Shown here piece after piece: positions 24,427 to 49,241 of a stretch of DNA of 64,000 nt. Each line of letters opens with the position of its first letter. The stretch's first letter is position 1. Position numbers and translations under genes: made by a program. The notes beneath the pieces are model-generated. The model ran no database searches, was not told where the DNA came from, and worked only from the letters and a program-made list of their open reading frames with translations. Source of the DNA: Candidatus Gastranaerophilales bacterium (GTDB taxonomy: Bacteria; Cyanobacteriota; Vampirovibrionia; Gastranaerophilales; Gastranaerophilaceae); NCBI GenBank assembly GCA_944323995.1, contig CALUUN010000001.1, positions 124,001 to 188,000 of the forward strand, in the 5' to 3' direction.

Positions 24427-25718
24427 TCAGAATATTTTTATGGGTTCTTTTATTTTCATCCGACAGTCATTTACAACTTCTTTGCATATATCGTCCTGAA
24501 CTGTTGTACCGCAGTATTTGACTGATTTTATATAACCTGTTTTGCAGGCGGCTGTTTTGTAGCCGCTATCTGTCAAAAGAAGTTTTATCTCTCGTCTGCT
24601 GCCCGTGAACACATCATACATGACGTTTACCTTTAACTGTTCACCCGATGGTGCGAAAGTTTCCGCCGGCAGTATTTTCCCTGATTTTAAAAGATAATAA
24701 GGAACCACATCATCATTCAGTTTTCCTTTGCCGGAATTTCCGTCGGTATCTATATAGATTAAAAAGCCCGAGCGGTCGTCTTCTTGTTCAGCATCCGATA
24801 ATATCTCAATATCCTCATAATCTGAGCCGATATATAATTTCAAGCCGTTTGCAAGTTCTATATGAGGCGTCAAATTCTTAAAATTACCGCCCGGTACTGC
24901 TGCTTGAACGGTTGCGACAGGCACACTGCAATCGCTTTTGTATTTATTAAAAGTCTGTTCCAATTTTTGGCAGAATAATGTCGTGTAATCTATTTCCTCA
25001 GGGGCGCCATCATCTATGCACACCGCCTGAGTGGTGGCGTAGACACGACCAAATTTGTACCAGACCGTGTAAGAGCCGCCGAATTCGCGGTGATATGCAT
25101 CGTTCTTGTCGTATTCCATACTCGACCACAGCCCAAACGCGGGACTGGGTGAGTTGATAAATCCCATCGATATTGCCATGTCGTTATCTCTTAGGCCATC
25201 AACTGATACTCCGTAGCTTGTACTTATGGTTGTGCCGGGGTACAAAACTCTTGCCAATTGGTCTAACTGTTGCTGACTAGGTAAAGTGCCCCCCATATCA
25301 TGGCATGCTTTTACTGCACCTGCCCAGTAGTCACTACCGTAGTAACATTCACTTATTCCGAGTTCTCCTTTTTGTGCTTCACAATCAGATAAACTCATTG
25401 CTGTTGGATAAAACGGAGCAGTGAAACATGTTCCGTCACTTAATTCAATTGCACAATCTGCCTCTTCATCTTCTTCTTCATCCTTAAAAAACCCCGGAAT
25501 AACATTTGCGGAAATATTCCGCATAAATTCATACCCCATATATTGTGATGCATAATCGACTTTTTTAAATTTCTTTATTGTAACCGGCAAAGTCACAACC
25601 ACGATAACCGCAATGATAACAAGGGCTGCGACCAGCTCAGCGACCGTAAACCCTTGCCTGGAGAGGGTTGTATAACGCCCCCCCCCGAGAAACCTGTAAT
25701 ACTCTCTATTCCAGCCAT
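24427..25718 (-). CDS. Prepilin A: phase-variable prepilin with C-type-lectin-like domain (OFF by frameshift)
   Basis: The ATG at 25718 has AAGGAGG 4 nt upstream and a strong promoter, but reading from it passes a G9 tract (25678-25686) and enters the wrong frame; G10 would join it to the pilin frame. The pilin part has QG|FTVAELVAALVIIAVIVVV (Gly/Phe cleavage site, Glu +5). Between Cys codons at about 25453 and 25020 lies a lectin-like domain (CAIELSDGTCFTAPFYPT, KACHDMGGTLPSQQQLDQL, LWSSMEY, AVCI) closely related to that of prepilin C. A further C-terminal domain contains IYIDTDGNSGKGKLNDD, as seen in other minor pilins. An alternative longer frame from 25770 bypasses the shift but lacks an SD and starts within the promoter. 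Likely a surface adhesin. Confidence 0.75.
25678..25686 (-). repeat. G9 homopolymer tract in prepilin A
   Basis: Nine consecutive C on the plus strand (G on the coding strand), 33 nt after the ATG and upstream of the prepilin motif. A candidate contingency tract: G10 or G7 restores the frame. Confidence 0.85.
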
Positions 25719-38378: not shown

Positions 38379-38401
38379 GAATTTAATGGGGGATATTGAT
38401 T

Positions 38402-39634
38402 ATGAAAAGTATTAAGAATAAAGCCGGATTTACTCTTGCCGAAATGATGGTCGTAATGCTCATATTAACAATCATACTTGCGGCATTTGCACCGTTTATG
38501 ACCAAAAGGAGGACTGTTGATACATCAAGCCCGTGGCGTTATGCAAGCAATAATTCAGATATTTATTACGGACTTGCGACAGATCAAACCGCCATGCTCG
38601 GACAAAACACAAAGGATTCCGCAGATCCGGAAAATAAATTCACAATAAGAACAACGGATTCAAATCAGTATCATATACTGTTTAAGGATACAAGCAGTAT
38701 TCTGGGTGCATTGAATTTATCTTCAAGCAACTTAATACTCGGCAACCGCGCTGTTTATAACAATTCTCCCGGAAGCTATGTGACGGCTTTCGGCATGGGG
38801 GCGCTTTCAAACAGCTCAGGTTCAGCAAACACCGCACTCGGTTATGCGGCCCTGCAGCAAAATACAGGCGGTGCAAATAACACCGCAATAGGATATCAGG
38901 CATGCCTTAACGTTACGGGTTCCAACAAAACATGTATCGGCGCAAATTCAGGCCCTGATGCAGGGGTTCCGATTGCAACGGACACAACGGACGCGGTTTA
39001 TCTCGGAAATGTTAACAGCACGGTGTATATTCCCGGTAACCTGATTGTCGGCGGTTCAATCATTGCAAACAACAACACTTATCTAGGAAAAGACACTGCA
39101 GGAAATAACGTTATTTACATCGGATTTAACGGAGTTCCGTTCGGACGCACACTGCAATATGATGCGGCCTCTTCGCAGCTTGTACAGGGCGGAGTTATGG
39201 ATACAACCGTTTTCAATTACACGGAACAGTTTTCCGACAAACGCTTGAAAAATATTACGGGCGAAAATAAATCCGGTCTTGACCAAATTCGTGAGCTGAA
39301 AGTTTATAACTATACTTTCAAAAACGATAAAGACAAAAAGCCGCAGGTCGGTGTAATCGCACAGGATCTGCAAAAAATATTCCCGGATGCGGTACGCGAA
39401 GGTCTTGGCGGCTATCTTATGATCAGGCAGGATGATATGTTTTATGCAATGGTTAATTCAATAAAACAGCTTGATATGTTTGTTCAGGGGATAATTAACG
39501 AACTCAAAGCAACACTTGAAAAAATTACGGGTCTGGACGAAAGAATAAAAGTTCTTGAAGAAGAAAACAAATCTTTGAAAGAAGAACTCTCACAGATTAA
39601 TAAAAGACTTGAAGAATTGGAAGAAGATGACTAA
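38402..39634 (+). CDS. Prepilin fused to tail-fibre repeats and peptidase S74 chaperone
   Basis: A 410-aa chimera. Residues 1-37: prepilin leader MKSIKNKAG|FTLAEMMVVMLILTII (Gly9/Phe10 cleavage, Glu14). About 110-185: glycine/asparagine repeats of the NTALGYAALQQNTGGANNTA type, as in phage tail fibres and YadA-like heads. About 278-375: a peptidase S74 intramolecular chaperone domain (SDKRLKNITGENKSGL...YKNDKDKKPQVGVIAQ-like, IFPDAVREG), with Ser278 and Lys283 in the spacing of the Ser-Lys self-cleavage dyad. 365-410: coiled coil. S74 domains normally trimerise and then cut themselves off spikes. The product is probably a trimeric surface fibre delivered by the type IV pilus machinery. A TTG at 38396 is in frame but not preferred. 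Confidence 0.85.
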   Translation: MKSIKNKAGFTLAEMMVVMLILTIILAAFAPFMTKRRTVDTSSPWRYASNNSDIYYGLATDQTAMLGQNTKDSADPENKFTIRTTDSNQYHILFKDTSSILGALNLSSSNLILGNRAVYNNSPGSYVTAFGMGALSNSSGSANTALGYAALQQNTGGANNTAIGYQACLNVTGSNKTCIGANSGPDAGVPIATDTTDAVYLGNVNSTVYIPGNLIVGGSIIANNNTYLGKDTAGNNVIYIGFNGVPFGRTLQYDAASSQLVQGGVMDTTVFNYTEQFSDKRLKNITGENKSGLDQIRELKVYNYTFKNDKDKKPQVGVIAQDLQKIFPDAVREGLGGYLMIRQDDMFYAMVNSIKQLDMFVQGIINELKATLEKITGLDERIKVLEEENKSLKEELSQINKRLEELEEDD

Positions 39635-43623: not shown

Positions 43624-43652
43624 TTGCAAACAATTTGAAAAGCTGGTATAAT
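43624..43652 (+). promoter_or_regulatory. Promoter of prepilin B
   Basis: TTGCAA (43624-43629), 17-nt spacer, TATAAT (43647-43652), near consensus, 34 nt before the SD-preceded ATG. Confidence 0.8.
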
Positions 43653-43686
43653 AAAGTTTATGGAAAAGAAAACGGAGGGAAAACAA

Positions 43687-44492
43687 ATGGCCAAAAATGC
43701 AGACTACATCACATCCTTGAGCGGGGGGGGGGGGGCTGTAAATCAGCTTCACGCGCTGAATACAGCAGTTTAATAACCCCGAAAGTTAAATCCGCATTTA
43801 CTTTAGCGGAAGTATTAATTACTCTTGCAATAATCGGCATTGTCGCAGCAATGACAATACCAGCTCTGGTAACTTCGTATCAGAAAAAGATTACAGCAGT
43901 TCGAGTAAAAAAGGCATATGCGGAACTGGTTCAAGTAATTAAGCTGTCAGAAGTGGATAATGGCAATATGGCAGCTTGGGATTTTGGAACTTACAATGAT
44001 GTAAATGAAACAAGGAAATTTTTAGAAAAATATATCTTACCATATTATAAAAATATTACGGAATGCAGTACGGGCAAGGATTATTCATGTGGTTATCCGG
44101 TAAGTGCTGCGGGGGTTAATTATCAGCTTGATAACGGCCTTGGCTTATCTTTTTTGAAAGATTTCAGCAAAAAGACAATTTATATAAATATTTCTCTTAG
44201 TACAAATAAGGGTGAAAATACTCTTTTAGGGCGTGACGCTTTTTATTTTGAAGTAGCAGACGGGAAAGTTTTTCCGGCAGGCTGGTACAACGGAATAACA
44301 CGTGAAGCAATATTAAATGATAGTTTTGTGCCGCCTTGGGATACCGGAGAAATTACATACATTTTTGCATGCAAAAAACTTCCTAAAGATGAAGAAGATC
44401 TGGAAGAAAATATTATATATGAATACAGACACGGTTGTACAGCGTTATTGTTTCTCGATAATTGGGAATTTAAGGATGATTATCCATGGTAG
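43687..44492 (+). CDS. Prepilin B: phase-variable prepilin (OFF by frameshift)
   Basis: ATG 43687 follows CGGAGGG by 7 nt and a consensus promoter. After 12 codons (MAKNADYITSLS) it enters G13 (43723-43735) and, in the given sequence, runs to a stop after 16 further codons. With G14 or G11 it would join the pilin frame: SAFTLAEVLITLAIIGIVAAM. Ala precedes the Phe at the cleavage site, as in the 11006-11740 prepilin, and the C-terminal LDNWEFKDDYP also matches that protein. The head holds several cysteines. A TTG at 43635 in the pilin frame lies within the promoter and is not a plausible start. The 3' end overlaps the convergent formyltransferase gene by 13 nt. Confidence 0.78.
43723..43735 (+). 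repeat. G13 homopolymer tract in prepilin B
   Basis: Thirteen G in a row in an AT-rich region, 36 nt after the ATG. The longest of the three tracts; G14 or G11 gives the ON frame. Confidence 0.88.
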
Positions 44493-45448
44493 TAAAAAGG
44501 GTGAAATTTTTCACCCTCTTCTTTTGCAAGTTTTATACAAAAACCTGTAAAAATCGGTAACCCGTAAAGTTTGAGCCCGCTCATTTTAACTGCGATACCG
44601 TCTTTGCAGCAAATTGTCAAAGAGCGGGTTTTAGGGCATTTTGCAATAATTTCACCGGGCATGCCGGTTTTATCTGTCAAACGGGCTTTGTATGGATTAA
44701 CGATAAAAAACATTTTCTCATAAGTTATATACGCCGGAAGGTAAGGATAAAGCGCTCTGATTGTACGGAGGATTTCGTCAGATGTTTGGGATTTAAAATC
44801 AAGCATTTTCTCGTCGCCCGTAATATTCGGGAAATAGCTTGCCTCATTTTCATTCTGGATTCTTTCCTGAACAATTCCCGCATTAAGTTTTTTCAACAAT
44901 TCACAGGTAATAATCCTTGCCGCAAAAACCGTTTTTGACTTTAATTCTTTTGCCGTATCAACAGGCAGAATGTCAATTTTTTGCTGAGCCAGAATCGGGC
45001 CCGCATCAAGTTTTTCGGTTATCAAATGGAACGTAACGCCTGATTGTTTTTCGCCGTGAAGAATTGTTTGGATATAAGGATTCGGGCCTCTGTATGCCGG
45101 CAATAGCGACGGATGAACATTTATTGCCGCAATTTTTGGAATATCAAATATCTCTTTTTTAAGTTTTTCACCCCAGGTACCGACGAGCATTATATCCGGA
45201 TTTAATTTTAAAAGTTCCTTTTTAAACTCTTTTGAATTTGCAGATTTACACTTAATTTCATATAGTTTACGCTCTTTAATCATAGTAACTTCGGGCGAAC
45301 TTTTGAAAAAATCTGACAAAAAGAGGTTGAACGGATGAATAGATGTTCTTTCATGCCTGAACACGCCTGCAATTTCAAAGCCGGCATCATTTACGCCTTC
45401 AATAAGGTTTGCAAGCATTTCACCTTTGCCTAAAATTACAACTTTCAT
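44480..45448 (-). CDS. Formyltransferase family protein (Fmt-like)
   Basis: 322 aa, folate-dependent formyltransferase fold: MKVVILGKGEMLANLIEGV, AINVHPSLLPAYRGPNPYIQ with the catalytic Asn/His, and GVTFHLITEKLDAGPILAQ with the catalytic Asp, then an Fmt C-terminal-like domain. It could be methionyl-tRNA formyltransferase, which would be needed for initiation, but the N-terminal loop (LGKGEM instead of the usual GTPxFA) and GPNPYI instead of GAAPI diverge from Fmt. A sugar- or amine-formylating paralogue is possible. SD AGGAG is good. smpB is 9 nt upstream. Confidence 0.72.
   Translation of the reverse strand: MKVVILGKGEMLANLIEGVNDAGFEIAGVFRHERTSIHPFNLFLSDFFKSSPEVTMIKERKLYEIKCKSANSKEFKKELLKLNPDIMLVGTWGEKLKKEIFDIPKIAAINVHPSLLPAYRGPNPYIQTILHGEKQSGVTFHLITEKLDAGPILAQQKIDILPVDTAKELKSKTVFAARIITCELLKKLNAGIVQERIQNENEASYFPNITGDEKMLDFKSQTSDEILRTIRALYPYLPAYITYEKMFFIVNPYKARLTDKTGMPGEIIAKCPKTRSLTICCKDGIAVKMSGLKLYGLPIFTGFCIKLAKEEGEKFHPFYYHG
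44495..44524 (+). terminator. Terminator after prepilin B
   Basis: AGGGTGAAA/TTTCACCCT stem followed by a T-rich run, just after the prepilin stop. It lies inside the 3' part of the convergent gene. Confidence 0.7.
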
Positions 45449-48123: not shown

Positions 48124-49241
48124 CTATTCCGCCAAGCACACCGCCGGACTGTCGCTGTAGTAGCGGATGCTGGTCATCCGGAACGTGCACATGATGCCGA
48201 AGTGGCGGATGTACGCGATGTCCTTGCTGCGCTCCTCACTCGACCACAGCCAAAAGTCGAAGCTGGGAGAGGTGATGAACTTCCATTCAATTGCCAGGTC
48301 GTTGTCTCTGCTGCCCCAGCTTGTTGTATCATCAGTGTAGATTGTTTTACCGGGGTACAAATCTCTTGCTAATTGGTCTAACTGTTCCTGACTCGGTAAA
48401 CTTGAACCCATATCTTTACATGCTTTTACTGCGCCACCCCAGAAATCATCATATCCATCTCTACAATCTGTTATGCCAAGTTCTGATTGTCTTTCTATGC
48501 ATTCTGCATGGCTTAATGCTGTTGGATAGAAAGGTGCAGTAAAACATGTTCCGTCACTTAATTCTATTGCACAGTTGCTGCCTTCTAATGCAATATTTCC
48601 TATATCTCTTAAGTCATCACCTCTATTATTCGGATTCTTAAATCCGTCTACGTCATATAATATGGCTAAACAATCATTTACACCTATGCTTTCTTTTCCT
48701 ATTGTTATTTTGTTATTGTTATATGGGTCTTGAGTACAGGACGGATTATATGCTATTACTCCGTTTACACCGTTTGCAAACTGTACTGCTACCGTATTTG
48801 TATCCCAGTCGTTTTGTCCGAAGTTTTTAGCTTTTTTAACTTTAGACATGTCAACTTCTTCATCACCCCAGGTTACGGTATCAGCAAAGCATGTTGTTAT
48901 ATCATCGTTATCACATATTCTTGTTATCTTAATATGTTTAGATAATTCATCAACAAACGCTTCGGTTGTTGTATAACCTGCCAAGGTTCCTTGAACATTC
49001 ATAACTTTTAATGCTTCACCGAGTTTTCTCTGGAATACTTGTGATGCAGTGTTCCATGCTCTTTCCTGATAGTTCTGAATTAATGTCGGGATAGTCAGTG
49101 CCGCAACTATACCGATTATTGCCAAGGTAATTAAAACCTCCGCAAGCGTAAAACCTTTACTCCTAAATACCCCGAAACCCGCACGGTGAGAGCTTAAAGA
49201 AGTACCCCCCCCCATTTAGGCTGAAATCCACTATTCATCAT
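48124..49241 (-). CDS. Prepilin C: phase-variable prepilin with C-type-lectin-like, DGR-type variable domain (OFF by frameshift)
   Basis: ATG 49241 follows AAAGGGG by 8 nt and a consensus promoter. Reading from it enters G9 (49205-49213) and meets a stop soon after; G10 would connect it to KG|FTLAEVLITLAIIGIVAAL. An ATG at 49215 abutting the tract is in the pilin frame at G9 but has no SD. The pilin domain covers the first 200 or so codons. Then a lectin-like domain (CAIELSDGTCFTAPFYPTA, GGAVKACKDMGSSLPSQEQ, FWLWSSEE, AYIRHF, SPAVCL) runs to the stop. Its last 50 codons are GC-rich and mostly end in C or G, unlike the rest of the gene, as in DGR variable regions. Likely a diversifiable surface adhesin. 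Confidence 0.78.
48127..48290 (-). other. Candidate DGR variable region in prepilin C
   Basis: Coding strand from near TTC-ATC-ACC to the stop. Nearly all codons end in C or G, and over half are XXC (CGC, AGC, GAC, ATC, TAC, CAC, TTC, GGC, TGC), as expected when AAC template codons are randomised at A. The conserved scaffold WLWSSEE and PAVCL flanks it. The tail shares GGCGGTGTGC with prepilin A, a possible IMH-like element. Confidence 0.6.
49205..49213 (-). repeat. G9 homopolymer tract in prepilin C
   Basis: Nine C on the plus strand, between the SD-preceded ATG and the prepilin motif. G10 or G7 restores the frame. Confidence 0.85.

Follow-up and report, generated by a model that had tools for sequence, protein, structure and literature searches.

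Layout of the prepilin B locus

The locus raises the question of how a prepilin gene comes to be translated if the start codon of its leader lies, across a run of 13 guanines, in a different reading frame. The preliminary description of the 64 kb stretch analysed (hereafter the window) had proposed slipped-strand ON/OFF switching: ATG 43687, preceded by a Shine-Dalgarno (SD) sequence and a promoter, would lead to an early stop at G13, while G14 or G11 would fuse it to the pilin. We located each of these elements as described:

43624..43652, + strand: sigma70-type promoter TTGCAA-N17-TATAAT, 5' of the leader; 10/12 matches, extended -10 (TG before the -10)
43673..43679, + strand: Shine-Dalgarno sequence CGGAGGG, read from the sequence
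43687..43773, + strand: leader ORF at G13, 28 aa and then a stop, by translation the OFF product; leader type found in ten genome copies
43723..43735, + strand: G13 tract, proposed to act as the switch, with G11 or G14 as the ON lengths; paralogous copies have G10 (2) and G12 (7)
43736..43784, + strand: remainder of the extended prepilin leader behind the tract, reading CKSASRAEYSSLITPK in the ON frame; conserved within the leader-A cassette
43785..44492, + strand: body of prepilin B, VKSAFTLAEV..., 235 aa and stop; N_methyl / TIGR02532; not a target of a diversity-generating retroelement (DGR)
44498..44517, + strand: terminator-like hairpin 3' of the pilin gene, from the sequence

The leader covers 36 nt from ATG 43687 to the start of the tract. 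At G13, translation from this ATG yields MAKNADYITSLSGGGGAVNQLHALNTAV followed by a stop, 16 codons after the tract start, and both G11 and G14 restore the frame, joining the pilin to ATG 43687 as one continuous protein. Read backwards, the prepilin frame (...GGGGCKSASRAEYSSLITPKVKSAFTLAEV...) stays open across G13 with the tract-spanning peptide ...RGGGGCKSASRAEYSSLITPKVKSAFTLAEVLITLAIIGIV.... A change of the tract by a single unit toggles this otherwise intact ORF, as is characteristic of an SSR phase-variable contingency locus. Between the G13 tract and the prepilin motif of this locus there is no in-frame ATG, GTG or TTG. The sole upstream start in the pilin frame, TTG 43635, was discarded because it lies inside the promoter, between -35 and -10, ahead of the transcript from that promoter. 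Prepilin B scores above the cut-off for both PF07963 and TIGR02532 and carries a class III signal motif, (G/A)FTLxE, with a hydrophobic stretch; as expected for type IV prepilins, a prepilin peptidase is encoded in the genome (PF01478 at C5:16329-16718).

In the reading that we favour, to which we assign a probability of roughly 0.7, contingency loci of the slipped-strand type, placed in the extended leader of the prepilins, would gate a mostly-OFF pilin repertoire. The promoter 5' of the leader would drive transcription, ATG 43687 would serve as the translation start, and slipped-strand mispairing during replication would add or remove G's. Anatomy and frames are seen in the sequence, and the switching and its rate are inferred. 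At G11 or G14 the ribosome would remain in the pilin frame, and at G10, G12 or G13 translation would end soon after the tract and yield no pilin. In relatives, the usual setting is G9 for OFF and G10 for ON. With this setting, a single cell would produce only a small part of a large pilin repertoire, and rare ON variants would be present in populations. The expected prepilin-peptidase site (before FTLAEV) is located 3' of the tract, so that the same mature pilin should result from any in-frame length once the leader is, presumably, cleaved off.

G tracts in the window and the genome

As the preliminary description had suspected, G runs of such length are hardly compatible with chance. The window has a GC content of 39% and contains three runs of at least 9 G, equal to 7 overlapping G9 matches, compared with 0.02 expected from dinucleotide shuffles. 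All three precede prepilin genes (43723 +, 49205 - and 25678 -), and tracts longer than chance, in or before an ORF, are one of the features that characterise SSR contingency loci. The features of the two further tracts are:

49205..49213, - strand: second tract, G9, leader MMNSGFQPK with ATG at 49241; OFF, ON = G10
48124..49164 (as DGR target, 48124-49215), - strand: prepilin gene that follows the second tract; its variable region, ~48134-48255, has the template repeat (TR) on contig C19 as template
25678..25686, - strand: third tract, G9, leader MAGIESITGF with ATG at 25718, prepilin motif GFTVAELVAALVII; OFF, ON = G10

A further prepilin-type protein of the window (38396-39634, +) carries a Peptidase_S74 intramolecular chaperone domain, which is usual in phage tail fibres.

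Beyond the window, the draft assembly of this genome (1.75 Mb, 35 contigs) encodes 82 prepilin genes by PF07963 matches and contains about 40 runs of at least 8 G, about 30 of which sit 30-290 nt 5' of an N_methyl/prepilin motif. The prepilin B locus is one of these roughly 30. The preliminary description concerned one gene, and our data suggest a system that extends across the family.

The leaders in this genome fall into several unrelated sequences, namely MAKNADYITSLS (tract length 10-13), MMNSGFQPK (9), MFKxVKKCK (9), MKQSKALQIAN (7-9), MSENLIYKS (10) and singletons. Every leader type is preceded by an SD sequence, and most by a good promoter. Leader A, the leader of prepilin B, occurs in ten copies that share a common sequence from ~60 nt before to ~75 nt after the tract, followed by differing pilins. 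Seven copies have G12, two G10 and one, prepilin B, G13; none of the ten is ON. A uniform tract, or a frame broken by other mutations, had been named as evidence against a switch. Neither was seen: tract length varies among the copies, and the pilin frame shows no break elsewhere. Start, tract, frame, intact downstream gene, near-identical paralogous leaders at G10, G12 and G13, and a like organisation in many sister genomes all fit the slipped-strand reading.

One might speculate that leader and tract serve mainly as a recombination cassette, leaders and bodies being exchanged by gene conversion with the frame effect secondary. The same leader (A ~135 nt, B ~145 nt) is indeed found before different pilin bodies, several leaders occur for one pilin type, and several contigs of the assembly terminate at a tract. 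However, contig ends are an assembly effect to be expected where leaders are repeated, and gene conversion explains neither the purity of the tract, nor the conserved frame, nor why ON equals G10 in unrelated leaders of other genomes. We consider this scenario very unlikely.

The leader-A pattern, searched in 15 same-genus genomes, was found in the own genome only, and the leader-B pattern had no match in the genome contig collection. Two tract patterns were without a match among viral contigs, so that no second same-species allele came from there. In the leader-B copies an ATG directly adjoins the tract and, at G9, is in frame with the pilin, so that these pilins could have weak starts independent of the tract.

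Reading frames, starts and promoters across loci

Across genomes we collected 157 loci with an SD-preceded start and a prepilin motif. In 143 of them the frame of the motif is open back into the tract, over an interval of up to 165 codons, compared with 18.1 +/- 3.3 expected; these 143 were used for all counts of switch state. Substitutions after the tract, taken from nearest pairs and sorted by codon position of the ON frame, are concentrated at the third position (115 vs 83 and 84), and more of the post-tract changes are synonymous in the ON frame (65) than in the other frames (36 and 40). The ON-frame peptide is recognisably conserved as GGG(A/T)TPLSR..SKGF in most relatives. Judged by these comparisons, the pilin frame is indeed meant to join the leader.

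These data also bear on the trivial explanations that the true tract is in frame and was misassembled or misread, or that the gene is dead. Homopolymers can be miscounted, and the assembly is a draft. However, frame offsets of the same kind are found at many loci of independently assembled genomes, the downstream pilin genes are intact with an open ON frame, and Illumina sequencing is reported to read poly-G tracts of such size accurately (PMC6321876). An artefact or decayed pseudogene is thus hardly credible.

The SD-preceded starts lie 18-51 nt 5' of the tract and are ATG in 138/143 loci. Upstream of the leader starts, a promoter score of at least 10/12 was reached at 74/141 loci, in comparison to ~6 in shuffles. 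An in-frame ATG follows the tract in 75/143 loci, mostly 8-10 codons before the motif. About 43 loci of relatives (e.g., L114, L116, L140, L153, L172) have, within the leader frame, a promoter close to consensus (TTGACN-N17-TATAAT) and, ~6 nt past its -10, an in-frame ATG. Such an internal promoter with in-frame ATG inside the leader frame is absent from the own genome. At the ~43 loci a leaderless short prepilin transcript is possible, and pilin production may bypass the leader in some relatives.

Tract lengths and switch state

If tract length were random with respect to frame, one third of the loci should be ON, while only 13/143 are (p ~1e-11). One additional base would be needed in 111/143 loci, and one fewer or two more in 19/143. 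The ON length equals 10 (mod 3) in 122/143 loci, and most carry G9. Tract lengths of relatives are unimodal with a sharp peak at G9 and tails at G8, G10 and G11; a sample picked by G9 comprised 37 G9, 10 G10 and one G11. The poly-G tracts of Campylobacter show a comparable distribution with 53% at length 9 and 26% at length 10 (PMC6321876).

Among disjoint nearest pairs the tract length is identical in 19/24 and different in 5/24. Indels within the tract are in modest excess over indels in the flanks (p = 0.10 for disjoint pairs, 0.04 for the own genome). Pairwise instability of the tract is suggestive, not overwhelming. A consensus derived from metagenome assemblies would conceal minority tract lengths, and where G9 is favoured in a mixed population, it would read G9 nearly everywhere; consequently, uniform G9 alone does not refute switching. 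Near-uniform G9 also fits selection for keeping most pilins off.

The same numbers invite a second explanation, programmed recoding. The tract would be a fixed slippery site at which a -1 ribosomal frameshift or transcriptional slippage (+G) joins the leader to the pilin, with a constant low output from the G9 allele and no switching of the DNA length. The requirement for exactly one extra base in these 111/143 loci would fit this idea, as would the strong preference for G9. Furthermore, the length of the leader before the tract varies mostly by multiples of three, and the zero frame stops at most 15 nt past the tract in 109/130 OFF loci. However, no single shift serves all loci. A fixed single offset does not hold across the 143 loci but for the G9 majority only, and within leader A the G10 and G13 copies need +1, while the G12 copies mostly need the opposite. 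In addition, near-identical copies differ in length, and G10 ON alleles as well as the G8 and G11 tails exist. We regard programmed recoding, the main rival, as unlikely. A related scenario can be envisioned in which G9 is a conserved recoding site, with pilins family-wide one base out of frame and produced at low level via slippage of ribosome or RNA polymerase, G10 giving full expression and two retroelements rewriting many tips; it appears rather unlikely to us. Slipped-strand switching remains the reading we prefer.

Distribution among relatives

Runs of at least 9 G were present in 15/15 same-genus genomes, with 11 to 102 apiece, and the leaders in sister genomes are other than leader A. 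Order-wide, among 117 genomes, members of the same family possess 0-176 such runs per genome and the six other families 0-6. Across 29 genomes the number of runs tracks the number of prepilins (Spearman 0.70). The main exception is G120, a family member with 58 runs of at least 9 G but only 10 prepilins. In this genome the runs (loci L292-L299) fall in other genes, among them several with resemblance to glycan or acyltransferase genes, the usual contingency targets; one run is shared by two tandem paralogues, as G10 and G9.

Using the tract plus its commonest following sequence as a pattern, 90 matches were obtained in named genomes. Nearly all belong to Candidatus Gastranaerophilales or uncultured MAGs. 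A single Symploca match (L197) was set aside as it is without a prepilin motif nearby. When runs of relatives were sampled by G9 alone, a prepilin motif was found within 600 nt in 41/48, further ones being of a poly-C or longer-spacer type. In the poly-C versions of relatives (L252, L255, L263, L271, L112, L121, L130), C9-C10 stands behind leaders of the type MEKVIxKAVQQV, and a prepilin motif is located behind the poly-C at L252, L255, L263, L271 and L130.

Diversity-generating retroelements

The own genome encodes two reverse transcriptases, with DGR sites at G000:C19 (L017 2438-6154) and G000:C8 (L289). One of them is located together with an Avd protein, a template repeat and a pair of prepilins, both with a leader that is ON at G10. 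In total, 29 dispersed prepilins are DGR targets, 20 matching TR1 and 9 matching TR2, and many of them also stand behind G tracts. Mismatches between template repeat and variable region (VR) affect 43-47% of the template adenines and 3-8% of the other bases, which is the adenine-specific signature of DGRs. The prepilin behind the second window tract (48124-49215) is such a target. For prepilin B, a TR match with adenine-specific substitutions at the 3' end was not found. A number of 29 remote targets is unusually high for DGRs.

Relation to known systems

Similar poly-G loci are known from Campylobacter, where PhasomeIt detected 5-81 phase-variable genes (PMC6321876). Both systems share G tracts within reading frames, tract lengths that peak at 9-10, large numbers of loci in a genome and ON/OFF states based on frame. 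In contrast, the present system belongs to another phylum, has the majority of its tracts in one gene family, the prepilins, in most of the genomes surveyed, and is strongly biased toward OFF; in number, up to 176 runs of at least 9 G per genome within the family compare with these 5-81 phase-variable genes.

A second parallel comes from Neisseria. Its opa genes encode outer-membrane proteins and carry pentameric CTCTT repeats in the signal-peptide coding region. In addition, the pilus component pilC is phase-variable through poly-G, and pilE changes by gene conversion from silent loci. There are about 11 dispersed phase-variable opa genes (PMC3745409). Like opa, the prepilins with tracts are paralogues of a predicted surface protein encoded at scattered sites, and each would have a repeat switch of its own in a region that is removed from the mature protein. 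Unlike opa, the repeat is a G homopolymer, the switch lies in a prepilin leader and the members are many more. Poly-G switching of a pilus component and variant pilins are shared with pilC and pilE, respectively, but in contrast to pilE, whole separate pilin genes would be gated here.

Retroelement-altered pilins of gut bacteria have been described for Bacteroides as well, where a DGR mutates the sequence of tip pilins of type V (reviewed in PMC12632263). The targets described here differ in being type IV-like prepilins, 29 in number and dispersed, served by two DGRs and in many cases placed behind G tracts.

Our search of the open literature returned no account of poly-G switched pilins of such kind, and no paper on DGRs in Gastranaerophilales or Melainabacteria or on phase variation in Gastranaerophilales, although absence from a search is no proof. 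While the mechanism class, SSR phase variation, is known, the lineage, the scale, the placement in the leader, the OFF bias and the overlap with DGR targets appear to be new. Gastranaerophilales are common, little-cultured gut relatives of cyanobacteria, and they would possess a large and seemingly undescribed phase-variable repertoire, presumably displayed on the cell surface and presumably of benefit to the cell. One protein class would be subject to two generators of diversity, on/off switching by G tracts and rewriting of tips by retroelements. In practice, genome annotation will miss or mis-start many such pilin genes.

Sequence elements around the tract

In long leaders of the own genome, e.g., C10:14079, C13:6896 and C9:52914, REP-like palindromes (GTCATTGCGAGGAGCGAAGCGACGTCGCAATC; CCCTCTACC...GGGAGAGGGTGGCACGCAGTGCCGGGTGAGGGTC) have been inserted downstream of the tract and ahead of the prepilin motif without closing the ON frame. 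By eye, the SD sequence (AGAGGAG) of many leaders was furthermore seen to be often complementary to a CTCCTCT right after the tract, e.g., at G000:C4:121026. An SD-masking hairpin formed by this pairing is possible, but CTCCT also codes for the conserved TPL peptide, and the complementarity may simply follow from these codons.
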